64,000 nt of DNA from Leifsonia sp. fls2-241-R2A-40a (lineage in GTDB: Bacteria > Actinomycetota > Actinomycetes > Actinomycetales > Microbacteriaceae), in the NCBI RefSeq assembly GCF_030209575.1, contig NZ_JARVRS010000001.1, forward strand, positions 1,178,001 through 1,242,000, read 5' to 3'. The translations under genes and the position numbers were made by a program. The notes beneath the pieces were generated by a model. That model was given only the letters and a program-made list of their open reading frames with translations. It did no database searches and had not been told where the DNA came from. Below, piece by piece: positions 12,226-27,261 of this stretch (position 1 is its first letter; every line of letters begins with the position of its first letter).

Positions 12226-14016
12226 TCAGCGGGTGAGAGGGATCTCCAGGATGCTGACGCCCGCCGGCGGAGCGGACAGGGCCTGGTCGAGCTCACCCTT
12301 GGTGCGCGCGACGCGGTGGGGCCAGCCGTAGGCGCTCGCGAGCGCGGCGAAATCCACGGACTGGGGTGTGTAGAGGACGCGATCGAAGGCCTGCGCGGGA
12401 GCCGTTCCTGCGACCTCGAGGCCGTCGAAGATCGTCCCGCCGCCGTCGTTTCCGACGATCACCTGAAGGTGGGGAACGGCCTCTCCTGCCCCGACGAGCA
12501 GGGAGCCGACGTCGTGCAGGAGGGCGAGGTCTCCGAGGAGCACACGGGTGACGCCGCTCGGAGTCTCAGCCGCCCGCGCAGCAGCCTGGCTGGCGAGCGC
12601 GATCCCGGTCGCCGTGGCGATCGTCCCGTCGATCCCCGCGAGTCCGCGATTGGCGTGCACGGTGATCTTCTTGCCGGGCACGATGCGGTCGACATCCCGG
12701 ATCAACCGGGATGCGCCGAGCACCAGCCGATCGTGCGGCCAGGTGTACCGCCACACGGCTTCCGCCAGCAGGGCGCGGGTGATGGGCGCGCGGATCGCCG
12801 CCAGCTCGGCCGACGCGAAGGCCAGGGCATCGGCCGGCTCGAAGGAACGGGCCTTCTCGACATCGGGCGCGACGGCTGCCGGATCGGCCTCCCGCTCGGC
12901 TTGCTCGGCGAGACGCCTGCTCGCGAACACCCACCGCCCGACCCAGCCCCGGACCTCGGGTGACCGGACATCGATGTCGGACCCGGCACGGACACCTCCG
13001 ACGATCCGGGCGCGGTGGCCCGGGTTGTACGCCTGGCCCCCCGTGGGCGCGACGACGATCAACTCGATGCCCTCGCGGGTCAATAGGAGAGGCACTTCGC
13101 GGCTCAGCGTCGGATGACCGAACACGACGGCACGTTCGACCGCTCCGCCGAACACCTCGTCGCGCAGCAAGTCACGGTAGGAGACGACCAGGTTGGGCCC
13201 GAAGTGCGAACCGCTCGACACTTCGGCGATCAGCGGGAAGCCGCCCTCCCGGGCGAATTCTTCTGCGCGGGGGCCGGCGTCGGCTCCCGCCACCACGACG
13301 GTTCGCCGCCCGCCGTCGATGTCGACGACCGTACGGCCGAGCGCCTCGGGCCCGGCGACGGACGGCAGGACGCCGGTCGGCTGCTCGGGCAGCTCGGGGA
13401 CGGCCACCGACAGCGGCTCGCGGAAGGCGACGTTCAGGTGCACCGGACCCGGATCCGCGCTGTCCGCTCCGACGGCGGCGCGGACGGCCGCCTCCGCGAG
13501 CGCCACTGCGCGCTCGCCTTCTGACGGGGCGCCGGTCGGAGCATCCACGTCGTCCGACCAGCGGACCGCGGACGCGTACAGGCCGTCCTGCTGCGTGGTC
13601 TGGTTGGAGCGGATGCCCCGCAGTTCCTCCGGGCGGTCGCCGGTGACGACGATGAGCGGGATGCCGGCCTCGTGCGCTTCGAGGACTGCCGGGTGCAGGT
13701 TCGCTGTCGCGGTCCCGCTGGTGGTGATGACGACGGCAGGCGCCTTCGTCTCGCGAGCGAGACCGAGCGCGAGGAACCCGCCCGAGCGCTCATCGATCCT
13801 GACGTGGAGGCGGGCCGAGCCCGACCGCTCCAGTTCCGCGGCCGCGAGCGCGAGGGCCTGCGATCGCGATCCGGGGCTCACGACGAGGTCGCGGACGCCG
13901 TTTCGCACGAAAGCGCTCAGCAGTGCGACCGAGAAGTCGGTCGCAGGATTACCGGTGGCCGCGGTCGCGGCAGCCGCCATGGTCGTGACGTCGCCCGGAT
14001 GCGGGCCGTCACCCAT
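12226..14016 (-). CDS. menD: SEPHCHC synthase (2-succinyl-5-enolpyruvyl-6-hydroxy-3-cyclohexadiene-1-carboxylate synthase)
   Basis: ThDP-dependent enzyme adding succinic semialdehyde to isochorismate, the first committed menaquinone step. The 596-aa protein shows the MenD signatures [13 protein letters not shown] and [15 protein letters not shown] (activating Glu) near the N-terminus, [14 protein letters not shown], and [12 protein letters not shown] in the C-terminal cofactor domain. Its start overlaps the end of the PLDc_N gene by 8 nt; a Met 12 codons in (MAAAATA) is an equally plausible start because homologues begin near there. It is the upstream part of the scattered men cluster in this window. 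No menF/isochorismate synthase is present here. Confidence 0.94.
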
Positions 14017-14365
14017 CCCGGCGGCCGGTCTGATCGTTGTTGTCGGGACCGTTCTCGTCCAGCTCGGCGAGCTCTTTCTCGAGCTGCCGGATGCGCTCCT
14101 CCTGGTCGTGGTCCATCCGGAGCTTTCCGAGGAACTCGGGGTCGTCGTCCGGCGCGGACACGCGACGTGCGAGAGCCTTCCGCCGGCCGCGGCCTATCAG
14201 GAACCACAGGATGCCGCCGATGACGGGGAACAGGATGATGACGAGCAGCCACACGGGCTTGGGAAGGCCGCGCACTCGAGAGCGATCGAACAAGGCGCAG
14301 TCTGCCACCGAATAGATGTAGAACACCACGGCTGCAACGCCGAGGGCTATCCAGAGGCGAACCAT
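14009..14365 (-). CDS. Small PLDc_N-domain membrane protein
   Basis: 118-aa protein with two transmembrane helices (about 3-22 and 37-60) separated by a short loop with VRGLPKPVW, the arrangement of the phospholipase D-nuclease N-terminal domain family. A charged, helical tail with likely coiled coil follows ([18 protein letters not shown]). The domain is only an anchor and has no catalytic HKD motif. It is the first gene of a unit with menD, overlapping it by 8 nt. A leaderless promoter is likely: TACGAT on the minus strand (14372-14377), 6 nt before the ATG. Function unknown. Confidence 0.75.
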
Positions 14366-14371
14366 GGGTCA

Positions 14372-14401
14372 ATCGTAACTCTCAGAGACGGTCTCTAAGC
14401 T
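14372..14401. promoter_or_regulatory. Back-to-back leaderless promoters (PLDc_N-menD / DUF4229)
   Basis: Minus-strand TACGAT (14372-14377) and plus-strand TAAGCT (14396-14401) are only 18 bp apart, each 6 nt from its start codon. Two polymerases could not occupy both at once. An inverted repeat, GAGACGGTCTC, lies between them (about 14385-14395). Confidence 0.55.
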
Positions 14402-14407
14402 GGGAGG

Positions 14408-14731
14408 GTGAAGCGGATTCCCTCTTGGATCACCTACACCGTGCTGCGCCTCCTGGTGTTCGCGGTGCCGCTCGCGATCCTGCTGCTGGTGGGCGTGGTC
14501 TGGTGGCTGGCTGTCATCGCTGCCGCGCTGATCGGCCTGTGCCTCTCGTACATCTTCTTGAGCCGTCCGCGAAACGCGGTCTCGTCGGAGCTTTATGCGG
14601 TTCGCCACCGCGAGAAGCCCTTGCGTTCGGAGGATGACGACGTGGAGGATGCCGCGGTCGACGCGCGCGACGAGCGCTCCGGGCCCGAGACGTCTCGTCG
14701 CTCCGAGTCGGGCGAGGGTTCAGCGGCCTGA
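14408..14731 (+). CDS. DUF4229 small membrane protein
   Basis: 107-aa protein starting with GTG. Two adjacent hydrophobic helices (about 10-28 and 31-47) are followed by LSRPRNAVSSELYAVR and a hydrophilic, acidic tail. This is the pattern of DUF4229, a small actinobacterial membrane family commonly found beside menaquinone genes. TAAGCT lies 6 nt upstream; the intervening GGGAGG is too close to the GTG to act as a normal ribosome site, supporting a leaderless start. It converges on menA with a 7-bp gap containing the arms CTGACC/GGTCAG. Role unknown; association with quinone synthesis is inferred from location. Confidence 0.72.
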   Translation: MKRIPSWITYTVLRLLVFAVPLAILLLVGVVWWLAVIAAALIGLCLSYIFLSRPRNAVSSELYAVRHREKPLRSEDDDVEDAAVDARDERSGPETSRRSESGEGSAA

Positions 14732-14738
14732 CCGAAGG

Positions 14739-15722
14739 TCAGAACGCGTAGGCGGCGCCGAGCGCGATTCCGACGAGCAGACCGGTGATGCTGGTCAGCT
14801 GCAGCGCCGTCACCAGTTCGCGCGGAGTGCGCCCGAAGAGCGTGATCACGCAGGCGGGCAGTGCGGCGAGCAGCGCGAACATCCCGAACCAGGCGAACGG
14901 GTAGAACACCGCGAGCACCGCGAGGATGAGGAACGGCACGAGCAGCAGCACGCAGAACACGATGCGGGATGCGACGTTGCCGAGCAGAACCGCGAGCGTC
15001 CGCTTGCGCGCCTGCTTGTCGGGCACGATGTCGCGGATGTTGTTGACCATGAGCACGGCGCAGGCGATGAGGCCGGCGATCACCCCGCCGTACCACGACT
15101 CCTGGTTGACGGTTCCGGCGAGCATGAACGTGGTGCCGGCGGTCGCGACGAGGCCGAAGAACACGAAGACGAACACCTCGCCCAGCCCGTAGTACCCGTA
15201 GGGACGCTTGCCGCCGGTGTAGAACCACGCCGCAGCGATGGCCGCCGCCCCGATCAGCAGCACCCACCAGTGCTGAGTCAGGATCACCAGGATCACGCCC
15301 GCGATCGCCGCCAGGGCGAAAAACGTCAGCGCGACCGTGAGTACCTTGCGCGGCGCCGCCTTGCCCGAGCCCGTGAGGCGGCCCGGTCCGACACGGAACT
15401 CATCCGTCCCCCGGACGCCGTCGGAGTAGTCGTTGGCATAGTTGACGCCGATCTGCAGGAGCACGGCGACCGCCAGACACAGCAGCGACCGGACGGGATG
15501 CCAGACTCCAGGCCCCTCCGCGATCTTCGCCGCCCCGACACCGATGAGCACCGGCGCGATCGCCAGAGGCAGCGTCCGGAGTCGCGCACCCGCGATCCAG
15601 TCGGCCGTGGTCGCCGGCTTGACGTTGGCGGCGGCCGCTCCCGGGCGTCCGCTGCGCCCGCCGCGCGGTCCGCGGGCGGTGGGCGGCGCCATCCGCTGCA
15701 TGCGTGGCTTGTTCTGACTCAT
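14739..15722 (-). CDS. menA: 1,4-dihydroxy-2-naphthoate polyprenyltransferase
   Basis: Integral membrane UbiA-family prenyltransferase that attaches the polyprenyl tail to DHNA, making demethylmenaquinone. The 327-aa protein has about eight to nine transmembrane helices. Both Asp-rich prenyl-diphosphate/Mg sites are visible: NYANDYSDGVRGTD and NNIRDIVPDKQARKRT. I choose the ATG at 15722 (MSQNKPRM) because TACGAT (minus strand, 15733-15738) lies 10 nt before it; the open frame continues upstream into menE but without support. The first about 45 residues are a basic, Pro/Gly-rich extension ahead of the enzyme domain. Confidence 0.93.
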   Translation of the reverse strand: MSQNKPRMQRMAPPTARGPRGGRSGRPGAAAANVKPATTADWIAGARLRTLPLAIAPVLIGVGAAKIAEGPGVWHPVRSLLCLAVAVLLQIGVNYANDYSDGVRGTDEFRVGPGRLTGSGKAAPRKVLTVALTFFALAAIAGVILVILTQHWWVLLIGAAAIAAAWFYTGGKRPYGYYGLGEVFVFVFFGLVATAGTTFMLAGTVNQESWYGGVIAGLIACAVLMVNNIRDIVPDKQARKRTLAVLLGNVASRIVFCVLLLVPFLILAVLAVFYPFAWFGMFALLAALPACVITLFGRTPRELVTALQLTSITGLLVGIALGAAYAF

Positions 15723-15748
15723 CACAGAGCGAATCGTAACAACATCCG

Positions 15749-16963
15749 CTATGCCCCTCGTTCCGCGGCGAGCGCCGAAATGACGACCCGGTCCGGTTTT
15801 CCGCTCGCCAGCCGTGGCATCCGGTCCACCTCGACGATGCGGGCGGGCGCGGCAGCTCGCCCCAGGCGCTCCGCGAGCGCCCTCCGAACGGCCTCGAGCT
15901 CCGTTCCCTTGCTCCCCTCCGAGACCACCACCGGCACCTGTCCCCACTCGGCGTCTGGCACCGCCACCACGACCGCCTCCCCGAGCCCCGGGAGTTCTCG
16001 GACGACCCGCTCGACGGCGTCCAGCAGCACCTTCTCCCCGCCCGAGATGATCACGTTGTCCGCACGGCCCGCGACGGATACGCGGCCCTCGTCGTCCACG
16101 CTTCCGAGGTCACCCGTGCGATACCAGCGAACGCCGTCGTGCTCAGCGAACGCGGACGCCGACCGCTCGGGATCGCCGACGTACCCTTCTGCAAGAACCG
16201 GCCCGGAGATCTCGAGCTGTCCACCGATCTCCCGCACCACGGTGGTCCCGATCGGAAGCCCGTCGTAGACGCACCCTCCAGCGGTCTCGCTGGAGCCGTA
16301 CGTACTCACGATCCGCGCCCCCACCCGTTCCGCCCGCTCCCGGAGTCCGGGATTGAGAGCCTGGCCGCCGACGAGGATCCCGTCGAAACTCCGAAGGGCG
16401 CCGGCCACCCGTCGCGAGCCGCCTTCGATCGCCTCCACGAGCCTCCCCAGCTGCACGGGAACGAGAGACGTGTACCGCAGGTCATGGCTCAACTCCCCGG
16501 CAGCATCCGCGAACCGCTCCGGGTCGAAGTGGCCCGCACCGTAGAGGATCGGCTCCGTCTCGGCCGCGAGTGACCGCACCAGCACCTGAGCTCCGGCGAC
16601 GTAGTGAACGGGAAGTGCGAGCAGCCACTGCCCCTGTCCGCCGAGCGCCCCGGCCGAGGCGGCCGCGCTCGCCAGCAGCGCATCCGCGGAGAGCGCCACC
16701 CTCTTCGGCACCCCTGTGGATCCCGACGTCTCGATGATGAGCGCCACATTCTGCGCGACGCGCTCGTCGTCCGCCGGCCACGACAGGCCGCCGACCCGCT
16801 GGCCCGGTGCGCTCGCGCTCGCACTCCGCGGCACCACGGCGCTCCGCATCTCGCTCGCGCTCCGCGGCACCACGGCGTCTCCCCCACCGCCGAGCGACTC
16901 ACGGAGAGCGGCGAAGACGTCCTCCGGCTGCGAGGCGTCGATCACCCGAACGGCTCGACTCAT
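15749..16963 (-). CDS. menE: o-Succinylbenzoate-CoA ligase
   Basis: Adenylate-forming enzyme that activates o-succinylbenzoate with CoA. The 404-aa protein is shorter than the 450-500 aa typical of MenE, as is usual in Actinobacteria. The AMP-binding P-loop ETSGSTGVPKRVALS, the STYGSSETAGGC motif, the YRTGDLGSVDDEGRV hinge and the C-terminal lysine region (PRLASGKPDRV) are all present, so it should be active. The N-terminal linker carries a 12-residue in-frame repeat (AVVPRSAS twice), see the repeat entry. It starts 11 nt after menB ends and is probably cotranscribed with it. Confidence 0.92.
   Translation of the reverse strand: MSRAVRVIDASQPEDVFAALRESLGGGGDAVVPRSASEMRSAVVPRSASASAPGQRVGGLSWPADDERVAQNVALIIETSGSTGVPKRVALSADALLASAAASAGALGGQGQWLLALPVHYVAGAQVLVRSLAAETEPILYGAGHFDPERFADAAGELSHDLRYTSLVPVQLGRLVEAIEGGSRRVAGALRSFDGILVGGQALNPGLRERAERVGARIVSTYGSSETAGGCVYDGLPIGTTVVREIGGQLEISGPVLAEGYVGDPERSASAFAEHDGVRWYRTGDLGSVDDEGRVSVAGRADNVIISGGEKVLLDAVERVVRELPGLGEAVVVAVPDAEWGQVPVVVSEGSKGTELEAVRRALAERLGRAAAPARIVEVDRMPRLASGKPDRVVISALAAERGA
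16824..16877. repeat. menE: 36-bp in-frame repeat inside menE
   Basis: The 18-mer CTCCGCGGCACCACGGCG occurs at 16824-16841 and 16860-16877, a period of 36 bp. It duplicates AVVPRSAS in the N-terminal linker of MenE just before the AMP-binding domain. The frame is preserved. Confidence 0.85.
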
Positions 16964-16974
16964 GACCCGCCGCC

Positions 16975-17886
<912 letters not shown>

Positions 17887-17942
17887 GGATCCAGCCTACG
17901 GTTCGCGCTTCCGCCGCGACCCGGCCGTGCAAAACTTGTGGA

Positions 17943-18935
17943 ATGGTGCCGGAACTCGCCGACCTGTTGGCAACTTCGCGTGTGGTCTCCCTGCCGATGA
18001 CCGCGCGCTTCCGCGGGATCACGGTGCGTGAGGCGGTGCTGTTCGAGGGGCCACAGGGCTGGACGGAGTTCTCCCCCTTCGTCGAGTACGACGATGAGGA
18101 GGCGTCCGCGTGGCTTCGCGCGGCCGTCGACTTCGGCTGGCGACCGACTCCCGAGCCGCTGCGGCAGCGCATTCCGGTCAATGCGACCGTTCCCGCGGTG
18201 CCGGCCGCCGATGTCGCGCGGATACTCGCCCGCTATCCCGACGTTCGGACCGCCAAGGTGAAGGTGGCAGAGCCCGGCCAGACGCTCTCCGACGACGTTG
18301 CTCGTGTCCGTGCTGTGCGTGAAGCACTCGGTCCCGAAGGACGCATCCGCATCGACGCGAACGCGCTGTGGAATCTGGACGAGGCCGAGCACGCCATCCA
18401 TGCCCTCGCCCCGTTCGATCTGGAGTACGTCGAACAGCCGTGCGCGACCATCGACGAGCTGGCCGAGCTCCGCCGTCGGGTCAAGTACATGGACATCCCG
18501 ATCGCCGCGGACGAGAGCGTCCGCAAGGCGGCCGATCCGCTCGAAGTCGCGCGTGCCGGGGCGGCCGACCTGCTGATCGTCAAAGCGCAGCCGCTCGGCG
18601 GCATCCACTCCGCACTGCGCATCGTCGCCGCTGCCGGCCTGCCGGCGGTGGTGTCGAGCGCCATCGACACTTCGGTGGGCATCGCGATGGGCGCCTACCT
18701 GGCCGCAGCGCTGCCCGACGTGGACTTCGACTGCGGACTCGGCACGGTGGCGATGTTCGTCGATGACGTCGCGGATGAGCCACTGGTCCCGGTCGACGGC
18801 AGCATCCCCGTCGTCCGTCCGACCGTGTCGTCGAGCCGATTGGATGCGCTGAGCGCTGACCAGGGCCGCACCGAGTGGTGGCGGGACCGCATCAGGCGAT
18901 GCCACCGCATCCTGGAGCACTCCGCCGCGCTCTGA
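17943..18935 (+). CDS. menC: o-Succinylbenzoate synthase
   Basis: Enolase-superfamily dehydratase converting SHCHC to o-succinylbenzoate. The 330-aa protein shows the acid/base lysines Lys105 and Lys107 (AKVKVAE), the metal ligands Asp138 (RIDAN), Glu164 (EYVEQP) and Asp190 (IAADES), and the opposing Lys214 (LIVKAQPLGG). The length and the short N-terminal capping domain match the actinobacterial MenC type. It is divergent from menB with a 56-bp gap; AAAACT six nt upstream of the ATG may be a weak -10. It ends 6 bp from the convergent HAD gene. Confidence 0.93.
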   Translation: MVPELADLLATSRVVSLPMTARFRGITVREAVLFEGPQGWTEFSPFVEYDDEEASAWLRAAVDFGWRPTPEPLRQRIPVNATVPAVPAADVARILARYPDVRTAKVKVAEPGQTLSDDVARVRAVREALGPEGRIRIDANALWNLDEAEHAIHALAPFDLEYVEQPCATIDELAELRRRVKYMDIPIAADESVRKAADPLEVARAGAADLLIVKAQPLGGIHSALRIVAAAGLPAVVSSAIDTSVGIAMGAYLAAALPDVDFDCGLGTVAMFVDDVADEPLVPVDGSIPVVRPTVSSSRLDALSADQGRTEWWRDRIRRCHRILEHSAAL

Positions 18936-18941
18936 ACCGGC

Positions 18942-19961
18942 TCAGGCGTACAGGCTCTCCGGTACCTCGAGCCCGTAAATCGCTCGACCCGAGTTCCAGA
19001 TGGCGGCGCACGCGGCCCGAAGGAGGTCGAGCCGATCCGGCCCCTCGGAGACGATCCGCACCTCGTTCCCATCGATGGCCACGGTCGCCTCGCGGACGCT
19101 GACCGAGCCGTCCCGAGCCGTCCGCGCCTGCGGATACGATTCGGTCAGACCTCGAAGGTCGTTCAGGATGTAGGTCGGGCGCGAGTTCGCGTCGGCCGAG
19201 AGCAGTTGCTTGCCTCCGTCGATGCCCGTCAGAACGAGGACCGAATCGATCTCCGCCCGATTCGCACCCAGGATGTCCGTGTCCAGTCGGTCCCCGATGA
19301 AGAGGGGCTTCTTCGCCTGGAAGCGATTCACGGCCTCGTCGAAGATCGCGCGCTCGGGTTTCCCCGCCACCAACGGGAGTCGCCCGACCGCGGTGTGCAC
19401 GGCCGAGACGAGGGTGCCGTTCCCGGGAGCGATGCCGCGAGCCACGGGGATGGTCCAGTCGGTGTTGGTCGCAATCCACGGACGTTCGTCGTCGGACCGG
19501 CCCTGGAGCGCGAACGCCGCCTCGGCGAGTTCCGTCCAGCCGATGTCGGGCGAGAAGCCCTGGATCACCGCAGCGGGCTCGTCGTCTGCGGATCGGGTGA
19601 CGGAGAAGCCGCCCTTCTGGACCTCGTCCACCAGGCCGTCCCCGCCGACGACCAGGATGTTCGATCCCGCGGGCACATGATCCGCGAGCAGGCGAACAGC
19701 GGCCTGGGGCGATGTGACCACGTCGGTCGGGCGAACGTTCAGGCCCAGCTCCGTGAGATGCTGGGCCACCGCAGCATCCGTTCGGGACGCGTTGTTGGTG
19801 ATGTAACCGACCCGGATGGTTTCGGCGACACCATTCAGGCTGTCCACTGCATACGGGATGGCGTCGGCGCCCTTGTAGACGACACCGTCGAGGTCGGCGA
19901 GGACGAGGTCGACTCCGTCGAGCGGAGCCTTGCCCTCACTGCTCCGTCGAAACAGTGCCAT
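18942..19961 (-). CDS. HAD-IIA family phosphatase (NagD-like)
   Basis: 339-aa haloacid-dehalogenase hydrolase of subclass IIA. Motif I is DLVLADLDGVVY (nucleophile Asp23, acid Asp25), motif II is YITNNASRTD, motif III Lys is in AGKPERAIFDEA and motif IV is GDRLDTDILGA. The C2 cap lies between motifs II and III. About 60 C-terminal residues extend past the core. The start lies 26 nt inside the upstream repeat-protein gene, so they are likely cotranscribed; the same pairing (TPR protein then HAD phosphatase) is found in mycobacteria. Relatives act on nucleotide, glycerol or phosphoglycolate phosphates. Confidence 0.88.
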   Translation of the reverse strand: MALFRRSSEGKAPLDGVDLVLADLDGVVYKGADAIPYAVDSLNGVAETIRVGYITNNASRTDAAVAQHLTELGLNVRPTDVVTSPQAAVRLLADHVPAGSNILVVGGDGLVDEVQKGGFSVTRSADDEPAAVIQGFSPDIGWTELAEAAFALQGRSDDERPWIATNTDWTIPVARGIAPGNGTLVSAVHTAVGRLPLVAGKPERAIFDEAVNRFQAKKPLFIGDRLDTDILGANRAEIDSVLVLTGIDGGKQLLSADANSRPTYILNDLRGLTESYPQARTARDGSVSVREATVAIDGNEVRIVSEGPDRLDLLRAACAAIWNSGRAIYGLEVPESLYA

Positions 19962-21639
19962 CGTGCGGCTCGCCCTCCACGTCGTCGTCCTCGGCTACGA
20001 AGTCGTCCACGTCGGCCGCTTCGTTGTCGTCCGCTGTCTCGTCCTCGTCCGTCAGATCGAGGAACACTTCTTCCTCGATGATGTCGATCGTCTCGTGCTC
20101 GTCCGTGTCCTGCGCCTGGTCGAGCGCCTCCTCGGCACGCGTCGCTCGGCTGCGCCAGCGCGCAGCGTCGTCGTCTCGGCCCAGCTCTTCCAGCACCTCG
20201 GCATACGCGTGGAACAGGTCCGCGCTGTAGCTGAACGCACGGTTCGGATCGAGCTGGGGAATCTCCAGTTCGGCGAGGGCAGCTTCCGGCTGCTCCAGGT
20301 CCAGGCGCGCACCGGACATGGCGATCGCCAGGGAGACCTGCACGTCGGCGGGCAGCGTGGAGCGGTCGACAGAGCGACCGAGCTCGAGCGCACGATCGGG
20401 CCGGCCCACTCCGCGTTCGCTGTCCACCATCAGGGGAAGCTGGTCGTTCGAGCCGGAGATCCGTCGATACGTCCGCAGTTCCCGGAGGGCCAGCGCGAAG
20501 TCGCCGGTCGCGTACGCCGTGATGGCGAGCGTCTCGCGGACGACCGCCACGCGCCCGGCACGCCGCGACGCCGAAACCGCGTGCTGGTGCGCGAGCTCGG
20601 GTTCGCTTTCGATGAGGCGACCCGCCATGACGAGGTGCTTCGCGACCCAGTCCGCGTTGTCCTTGCTGAGCGTCTTCAGCTCGACGCGTGCTTCGCCGGG
20701 GAGATCTCGAGCCTGAACGTCGTCAGGGATGTCCGGGTCGTCATGACGCGGACGCACGGACTGCAGCTCGCGAGCGCGCTCCGCTTCTACGTCGTACTGC
20801 CGGCTCTGCTCGCGGGCATCTCTATCTCCGCGGGCCGGGCGTCCGTCGCGGGTCCACAGCTGCTCGTCGCGTCCGGGGCGCCCCTGACCGTCGCGGCGGT
20901 AGCCCCCGGCCTGTCCACGAGAACCACCCGCGCGTGCGGGTCCGCCACTCTGCTGACCGCGGGATGCGCTGTTCCACTCGCGACCACCCGAGCGGTTCCC
21001 GGAGGATCCGTCCGTTCGTCGCGGGGCGTCGCCACGTCCGTCGCGACCTGCGCCGGACGGACGACCGCCCTGGCGCTCGACGTCGCGTCCTCGGTAGCCG
21101 TCCCGACGCTCGCTGTCGCGGCCCCGGTAGCTGTCTCGGCGCTCTCCGCCCCGGGAGTCATCGCGTCCGCGGAAGCCGGCGCCACGCTCGCCGCCGCGCG
21201 ACCCGGAGTACCCGCCGGAGCGCTCGGGTCGACGGTCGTCGCCTGCCGCGCGAGGCTTCCATTCGCGCGAGGGACGTCCGTCCCGCGAACGACCAGCGTC
21301 GTCTCGGTCGGTCCGCGGTCGCGGGTTACGGTCTCCGCGGTAGCGGTCGGCACCGTCGCGGCCGTTTCCGGCGCCTTCTGCGCGGCGGTAGCCGCCCTCC
21401 GAACGGTCACTGCGACCGTTACGGAACGAGCCGCCGCCAGTAGAGGACGACCGATCGCGGGATGCGCCACCCGACGAAGACCGGTCGCGGGACGTGCCGC
21501 TCGAGCGCGGTCGACCGCCCTGCCCGCCATCGTTGCGTGGGGGTCGGTAGCTGTCTCCGCCGCGAGCCGGCCGGTCGGGCTGCTGTCGGCGCCGCGGCTG
21601 CTCGTTCCGGGCGTTCTCGTCTGCCGGTGTGTCGCTCAC
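19936..21639 (-). CDS. Arg/Gly/Asp-rich disordered protein with TPR-like domain and acidic tail
   Basis: 567-aa protein in three parts. Residues 1 to about 310 are low complexity, dominated by Arg, Gly, Asp and Ser, with RGG and YRGRD-type motifs and a local tandem pattern (YRGRDSERRDG then YRGRDVERQGG). Residues about 315-505 are alternating helices resembling TPR-like repeats (AITAYATGDFALALRELR; YAEVLEELGRDDDAARW). About 50 very acidic residues close the protein. I start at GTG 21639, preceded by GGAGA; an upstream ATG at 21726 would read into the terminator region. It lies just behind the rRNA operon on the same strand. RGG-type tails bind RNA and drive condensates in other systems; whether this one does is inference. 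Confidence 0.8.
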   Translation of the reverse strand: MSDTPADENARNEQPRRRQQPDRPARGGDSYRPPRNDGGQGGRPRSSGTSRDRSSSGGASRDRSSSTGGGSFRNGRSDRSEGGYRRAEGAGNGRDGADRYRGDRNPRPRTDRDDAGRSRDGRPSREWKPRAAGDDRRPERSGGYSGSRGGERGAGFRGRDDSRGGERRDSYRGRDSERRDGYRGRDVERQGGRPSGAGRDGRGDAPRRTDGSSGNRSGGREWNSASRGQQSGGPARAGGSRGQAGGYRRDGQGRPGRDEQLWTRDGRPARGDRDAREQSRQYDVEAERARELQSVRPRHDDPDIPDDVQARDLPGEARVELKTLSKDNADWVAKHLVMAGRLIESEPELAHQHAVSASRRAGRVAVVRETLAITAYATGDFALALRELRTYRRISGSNDQLPLMVDSERGVGRPDRALELGRSVDRSTLPADVQVSLAIAMSGARLDLEQPEAALAELEIPQLDPNRAFSYSADLFHAYAEVLEELGRDDDAARWRSRATRAEEALDQAQDTDEHETIDIIEEEVFLDLTDEDETADDNEAADVDDFVAEDDDVEGEPHDGTVSTEQ

Positions 21640-21711
21640 GGCTTCTCCTGTCGAGTCGGCGGGTCGAGCCCAGCCTATTCTTCGTACTGCTACTGACCCC
21701 GTTAACGCGAA

Positions 21712-21737
21712 ATGGCCACCCATCACTGGGTGGCCAT
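21712..21737 (-). terminator. Terminator of the rRNA operon
   Basis: A perfect 11-bp inverted repeat (ATGGCCACCCA / TGGGTGGCCAT) with a 4-nt loop, 12 bp after the 5S 3' end. In the direction of transcription it is followed by TTTCG, a short T-run. It separates the rRNA operon from the disordered-protein gene. Confidence 0.85.
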
Positions 21738-21749
21738 CTCACAAAGAAG

Positions 21750-21867
21750 TCCGGCGGTGTCCTACTCTCCCACAGGGTCCCCCCTGCAGTACCATCGGCG
21801 CAGAGAGTCTTAGCTTCCGGGTTCGGAATGTAACCGGGCGTTTCCCTCTCGCTATGGCCGCCGAAAC
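21750..21867 (-). rRNA. rrf: 5S ribosomal RNA
   Basis: About 118 nt. On the minus strand it begins GTTTCGGCGGCCATAGCG and ends GTAGGACACCGCCGGAC, so the terminal stem GGCGG/CCGCC closes. The internal CCGAACCCGGAAGCTAAG loop is the universal 5S signature. Ends are estimated to a few nucleotides. Confidence 0.95.
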
Positions 21868-21920
21868 ACTATTGATGTATCAAAGTGAACGATCAAGCTT
21901 CGCTTGAATCAGTTCTCGAC

Positions 21921-21949
21921 CGTACATCGAGAACCACATAGTGGACGCG
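21921..21949 (-). other. 3' arm of the pre-23S processing stem (23S-5S spacer)
   Basis: This segment is complementary to 25240-25266 in the 16S-23S spacer over about 25 bp with few mismatches (GTCCACTATGTGGTTCTCG against GAGAACTACACAGTGGAC). Together they form the long stem flanking 23S that RNase III normally cuts. Confidence 0.75.
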
Positions 21950-22000
21950 TGCAATCTCAGGCCCCTCATGCCAGCCTTACAACATGCATGAGAGTGGTGA

Positions 22001-27063
<5,063 letters not shown>

Positions 27064-27261
27064 ATGTTTTGCTCCGCGGTCGCAAGCGACCGGGAAACAT
27101 TGTGCAGGCTTGGCCAGGAAATATGGCCGCGCACTGCGAGTTTGTCTTGACTAGTTTCGAATATCTACTGACATTCTGTTTCTAATCCAAAGGAATCTCG
27201 CATCGACCACTAGACTAGGTCTAGAAGGTCAATGCCGAGGTTGTTTGGCATTTGACATTGT

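Follow-up and report, generated by a model that had tools for sequence, protein, structure and literature searches.

The gene at 19936..21639 on the minus strand of the window, i.e. the whole 64,000-nt stretch of DNA analysed here, belongs to a real, class-wide and unnamed family with an unusual disordered region that is under selection, and it stands behind an rRNA operon, an adjacency that comparison of gene neighbourhoods indicates is ancient and specific. The 567-aa product consists of an R/G/D/S-rich disordered N-terminal half, a TPR-like domain and an acidic tail, and falls within the Rv1691/MSMEG_3754 orthologue group. The most likely reading, to which we give somewhat less than an even chance, is that its product is an RNA-associated scaffold of actinobacteria. 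It is near-universal in actinomycetes, Streptomyces-like and mycobacteria-like genomes included, and is annotated there merely as hypothetical or as a TPR protein. What sets it apart is a charge grammar in the disordered region that is kept over very distant lineages, together with its address behind the rRNA operon.

The coordinates and length given in the first-pass annotation were correct, as was the placement of the gene on the same strand as the rRNA, both being on the minus strand. The start codon is a GTG at 21639, with AGGAG 5' of it. Between two Leifsonia loci (L170 and L171), the disordered part has a dN/dS of 0.15, and 99 of 145 substitutions are at third codon positions. This pattern identifies the minus-strand frame as coding and indicates that purifying selection acts on the disordered half; a 588-aa antisense ORF was ruled out as the true gene by the same codon-position substitutions. 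Aligned with these two loci, the window protein has 50% identity with many gaps in the disordered part, and 92–93% in the domain. The closest named relatives are Leifsonia, at 89% in the TPR domain.

The arginine-rich mixed-charge region, with its YRGRD, RD and RG elements, spans residues 1–290 (20770..21639, minus strand). This is 51% of the protein, in line with the earlier description of more than half of it as low-complexity R/G/D/S sequence. R makes up 24% of these residues, G 20%, D 11%, S 11% and K 0.3%, compared to 8% R and 9% G in the remaining genes of the window, and the richest 100-aa stretch is 75% R/G/D/S, against at most 53% in every other window gene. In the full-length AlphaFold2 model, the pLDDT is below 50 over residues 1–268 and 513–567. 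The first-pass annotation had singled out both YRGRD and RGG as repeated elements. YRGRD is indeed repeated, with two occurrences against a mean of 0.01 in shuffles of the same composition; [YF]RG (4 vs 0.5) and RD (15 vs 7.7) also exceed their shuffle means. RGG was overstated: its three occurrences compare with 2.8 expected from composition, and it was rejected as a defining motif, or one enriched beyond composition, of the window protein. RGG-dense sequences exist among some other members, judged by raw density rather than against shuffles. "Arginine-rich mixed-charge" is therefore the more apt label. The statement that such a protein is uncommon in bacteria applies to this genome, where a search for a second copy of the disordered part gave no match at E<1, but not to the Actinomycetes, within which the architecture is the rule. 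Near the end of the disordered half, an LWTRDGxPARGDRDA element (LWTRDGRPARGDRDA; residues 261–275, 20815..20859, minus strand) was found in 29 of 127 relatives (the window protein and 28 others), all of them Microbacteriaceae-type loci and a subset of that family. It is possibly a short binding motif; with this limited distribution, the idea of a family-wide short motif in the disordered half was rejected.

Among the members of the family, the sequence of the disordered half turns over but its composition is kept, at ~24% Arg and almost free of Lys. The N-terminal region is thus neither absent from close relatives nor unrelated in them, which the first-pass annotation had named as an outcome that would count against its proposal. 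In 115 members, the basic and acidic fractions differ but covary, with a rho of 0.83 (0.85 in the complete-genome set). The net charge of the disordered half in these members is 0.084 with an sd of 0.021, where an sd of 0.052 would be expected if the two fractions were independent. Charge mixing is finer than that of shuffled sequences in 99% of members (median z −3.2), and R/(R+K) is 0.97, without significant dependence on GC. Similar composition is built from different repeat units in many families. The disordered half is Arg-rich and Lys-poor with acidic residues intermixed, which is what defines an arginine-enriched mixed-charge region.

It could be argued that this half arose as a side effect when RD/RG codon repeats expanded in GC-rich DNA, or that it serves as a non-specific solubility bristle, and that only the TPR domain matters. 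Its quick turnover and its length, from 27 to 663 aa among loci, fit such an origin, and RD-type repeats alone, which by themselves give covarying positive and negative fractions, might account for part of the covariation. In a strongly reduced genome of the family, with 927,303 bases (G015, locus L129), the TPR core occurs alone, without the disordered half, and there is no rrn in the stretch read. However, the low dN/dS inside the half, the net charge held at 0.08 over 115 members, the lack of a significant dependence of R/(R+K) on GC and the recurrence of the composition from unlike repeat units all argue against this explanation, which we regard as very improbable.

The conserved TPR-like, all-helical domain (residues 291–506; 20122..20769, minus strand) has 29 invariant columns, seven of which are Arg. 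When the domain was modelled alone (residues about 300–511), AlphaFold2 returned a TPR-like solenoid with a mean pLDDT of 91.3, i.e. tandem antiparallel helix pairs wound into a superhelix in the predicted structure, and the TPR-like helices of the first-pass annotation were thereby borne out. The best Foldseek match was a consensus TPR, 8chy (TMq 0.50, E 3.9e-4), and 9 of 18 members have a Pfam TPR_2 match. No dedicated family model was matched in Pfam/NCBIfam, only generic or sub-threshold TPR-type models, and no catalytic RNase or helicase domain of the RNase E/Rho type was found in these searches; no solved structure was related by sequence (best E 0.65). In VIA-align, MamA gave a Z of 16.1 with an rmsd of 3.3 over 171, although a Z this high is common among TPR proteins and uninformative on function. 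The acidic tail, with its ETIDIIEEE element, comprises residues 507–567 (19936..20121 with the stop, minus strand). These 61 aa carry a net charge of −0.46 per residue, as acidic as had been described, and 98% of members have a tail with a net negative charge.

Such a combination could belong to a chaperone for basic ribosomal proteins, in which the acidic tail and the TPR groove would hold nascent r-proteins and the basic half would anchor to rRNA, by analogy with sNASP and histone H3. The fold and the near-constant acidity of the tail are what one would want for this role, and the sNASP TPR is among the structural neighbours, with a Z of 14–15. Against this, values in that range are again common among TPR proteins, and the tail shrinks to ~15 aa in the mycobacteria-like members (f22), where the disordered part is just 35–75 aa. 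We consider this role quite improbable.

Searches with the core matched 97 of 100 genomes in the family and 142 of 149 in the order. Profile A1 matched 234 of 247 genomes of the class, all listed f22 genomes included, and 60 of 149 in a draw from the phylum, 47 of them outside the class. Beyond the class its scores drop sharply, to 132 bits at best, and orthology is weaker there. The members share a homologous TPR-like domain, normally in single copy, and a gene order, before a HAD phosphatase and tlyA-nadK-recN, from which tlyA has been relocated in Leifsonia. In the window, the HAD-IIA phosphatase gene (18942..19961, minus strand) occupies the position of Rv1692, a glycerol-3-phosphate phosphatase (PMC12722247), and its first 26 nt overlap the stop end of the 567-aa gene. 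The C-terminus of this phosphatase (residues 293–324) has a partial match to PF18407 (GNAT-like). Rv1691, a TPR-repeat-containing protein of the lprJ-recN operon, precedes an Rv1692-type HAD gene and tlyA/ppnK/recN (PMC3072309), and by position and description Rv1691/MSMEG_3754 is the mycobacterial counterpart (PMC3072309, PMC7092591). The f22 domain is the same, and rrn lies directly upstream where present; the difference is in the flanks, where f22 members have 35–75 aa of disorder and 15 aa of tail, and the window protein has 290 and 61 aa. A search of a plasmid collection gave two matches only, one of them plainly a chromosomal piece. The record labelled plasmid 8 of Tsukamurella tyrosinosolvens (L326; NZ_LR134450.1, 6565–19062) contains an rrn operon along with the recN block, and is therefore probably a piece of chromosome.

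The rrn operon of the window (21749–27064) contains 5S (21749..21865), 23S (22000..25113) and 16S (25541..27064) rRNA genes, all on the minus strand. Since one 5S was found, it would be the sole rrn operon of the 3.75-Mb genome; no tRNA genes were found in the 64,000-nt window. To assess linkage, we used 60 loci of ~10 kb, mostly from complete genomes and picked for distance from contig ends, not for rrn, plus the window. An rrn on the same strand lies at most 600 nt upstream in 49 of these 61 loci, and anywhere upstream in the stretch in 54; two loci from outside the class (L167 and L169) are among those with an upstream rrn. Among a further 80 named relatives, an upstream rrn occurs in 60, with a median gap of ~98 nt, and most of the others are contig ends. 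The linkage is specific to one operon: at 47 further rrn loci of 23 genomes the gene was absent throughout, and these loci had no other downstream gene in common across more than four families, so that the remaining rrn loci were rejected as equally conserved neighbourhoods.

It is possible, but on balance rather unlikely, that the linkage is passive, the gene having stayed in an unbroken ancestral block of tyrS-rrn-TPR-HAD-tlyA-nadK-recN, with the protein serving RNA or proteins in general as a scaffold, without a tie to rRNA. Much of the block can be recognised: tyrS is upstream of the gene's rrn in 17 of 27 genomes from nine families, as it is upstream of mycobacterial rrnB (PMC10218544), tlyA is close downstream in 14 of 19, and a named Tsukamurella record reads 16S-23S-5S-gene-HAD-TlyA-NAD kinase-RecN. 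The HAD gene follows in 51 of 61 loci, a linkage equal in strength to that with rrn, and a mycobacterium-like genome lacking this rrn (L152) retains the gene. However, Leifsonia has kept rrn-gene-HAD together although tyrS and tlyA have both been relocated, and in two Streptomyces-like genomes (f35) no tyrS was found in the 4.6 kb upstream of rrn and the gene is still 94–143 nt after 5S. The rrn linkage is in part a remnant of an ancestral tyrS–rrn–TPR–HAD–tlyA block, and selection for adjacency is only a candidate explanation. In the Leifsonia-like genomes G000 (C1:365746–366453) and G055, tlyA is far from the gene.

The first-pass annotation had called for a check of whether the disordered half is kept where the gene is not beside rrn. 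It is retained, at a length of at least 80 aa, in 8 of 12 loci without an adjacent rrn, compared to 42 of 49 with one, and can therefore be considered independent of rrn adjacency.

The gene does lie just after a terminator-like element that follows the rRNA genes, close to what had been proposed. The 109-nt spacer between the end of 5S and the start codon (21640..21748, minus strand) contains a strong hairpin, GAGATGGCCACCCAGTGATGGGTGGCCATTTC, followed by the RBS AGGAG. In 84 of 98 loci, 5S is followed by a hairpin with an energy below −12 kcal/mol, and the 10 nt after the hairpin contain a median of three T. This element is terminator-like with a weak T-run, from which a leak is conceivable, and read-through from rrn into the gene is possible. 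The spacers gave no clear sign of a sigma-70-type promoter belonging to the gene itself: TANNNT was not enriched (41 of 96, vs 35 by shuffling), and no conserved −10 box was found. A pattern of the TTGAC/TTGCC/TTGCG type is over-represented in the spacers (28 vs 12), without coupling to a −10 box.

The literature searched mentions the gene in proteomics and gene-order contexts only, and yielded no functional study of it. In a crosslinking screen on the RNA polymerase beta subunit, which listed 275 proteins, MSMEG_3754 had a place on the high-confidence list; it was picked for validation, and there its FLAG pull-down recovered no DNA (PMC7092591); this is compatible with RNA- or protein-mediated contact. 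It is also listed in a ClpC1 interactome (PMC10433963). We favour the RNA-associated scaffold because the domain is class-wide, the rrn linkage is specific to one operon and the charge grammar is constant, and because MSMEG_3754 is on the RNA polymerase list without DNA and the domain has its seven invariant Arg. In such a scaffold, the well-mixed Arg-rich half would make weak multivalent contacts with RNA, most plausibly pre-rRNA in view of the rrn linkage; the TPR solenoid may grip a peptide of a transcription or ribosome-assembly partner; and the acidic tail could tune the Arg-rich half or hold basic ribosomal proteins. Several points count against it: the RNA polymerase pull-down screen was a permissive one, many genomes pair the gene directly in its operon with a glycerol-3-phosphate phosphatase rather than a ribosome factor, 12 of 61 orthologues persist away from rrn, and the mycobacteria-like members keep little of the disordered part.

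The closest compositional parallel is with the arginine-enriched mixed-charge domains of eukaryotic speckle and nucleolar proteins (PMC9324279; Greig et al. 2020, as cited in PMC13269538), which are likewise Arg-rich, Lys-poor and Asp-rich, with well-mixed charges and a slight positive excess. The window protein differs in having more Gly and Ser/Pro and in being fused to a bacterial TPR domain, and there is no known common descent. Finely mixed R/D domains localise to speckles in human cells and blocky ones to nucleoli, and in vitro an alternating R/D peptide alone did not phase separate but a blocky one did (PMC9324279). Since the charges here are finely mixed, this counts against condensates driven by the protein itself, which cannot be confidently predicted. 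Among bacterial proteins, the condensate-forming Bacteroides Rho (PMC13269538) and RNase E are similar in having a charged disordered segment and a relation to RNA. The segment in the Bacteroides Rho is Lys/Glu-rich, unlike the Arg/Asp/Gly-rich window protein, which has no Rho or RNase domain.

Nucleolar RGG/GAR proteins such as nucleolin and fibrillarin have R/G-rich disorder, Y/F in an RG context and acidic stretches. In terms of working principle, the window protein is similar in combining R/G-rich disorder, Y/F-RG and an acidic stretch in one chain, but its RGG is at the level expected from composition and it has no RRM or other RNA-binding domain. A bolder reading, which is speculative and in our estimate clearly unlikely, is that of a dedicated Actinomycetota scaffold behind the rRNA operon, which would organise nascent rRNA and RNA polymerase through its Arg-rich mixed-charge region as a working-principle counterpart of nucleolar GAR/acidic proteins, its expression being tied to growth rate through leaky rrn read-through. 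If the protein does bind rRNA or organise its transcription, it would be a dedicated bacterial example of the role of eukaryotic nuclear Arg-rich mixed-charge proteins.

Overall, the architecture and the rrn neighbourhood put forward by the first-pass annotation are real and conserved far more widely than the sequence alone could have told, which strengthens a connection to RNA or ribosome biology; the proposal that RGG defines the protein was not supported. The natural variants of the family form a ready comparative set for disordered-region function.

Beyond the HAD gene in the window, ORFs at 12226–18935 resemble, as read from their translations, the menaquinone biosynthesis genes menD, menA, menE, menB and menC; the menC-like ORF and the HAD gene are convergent.
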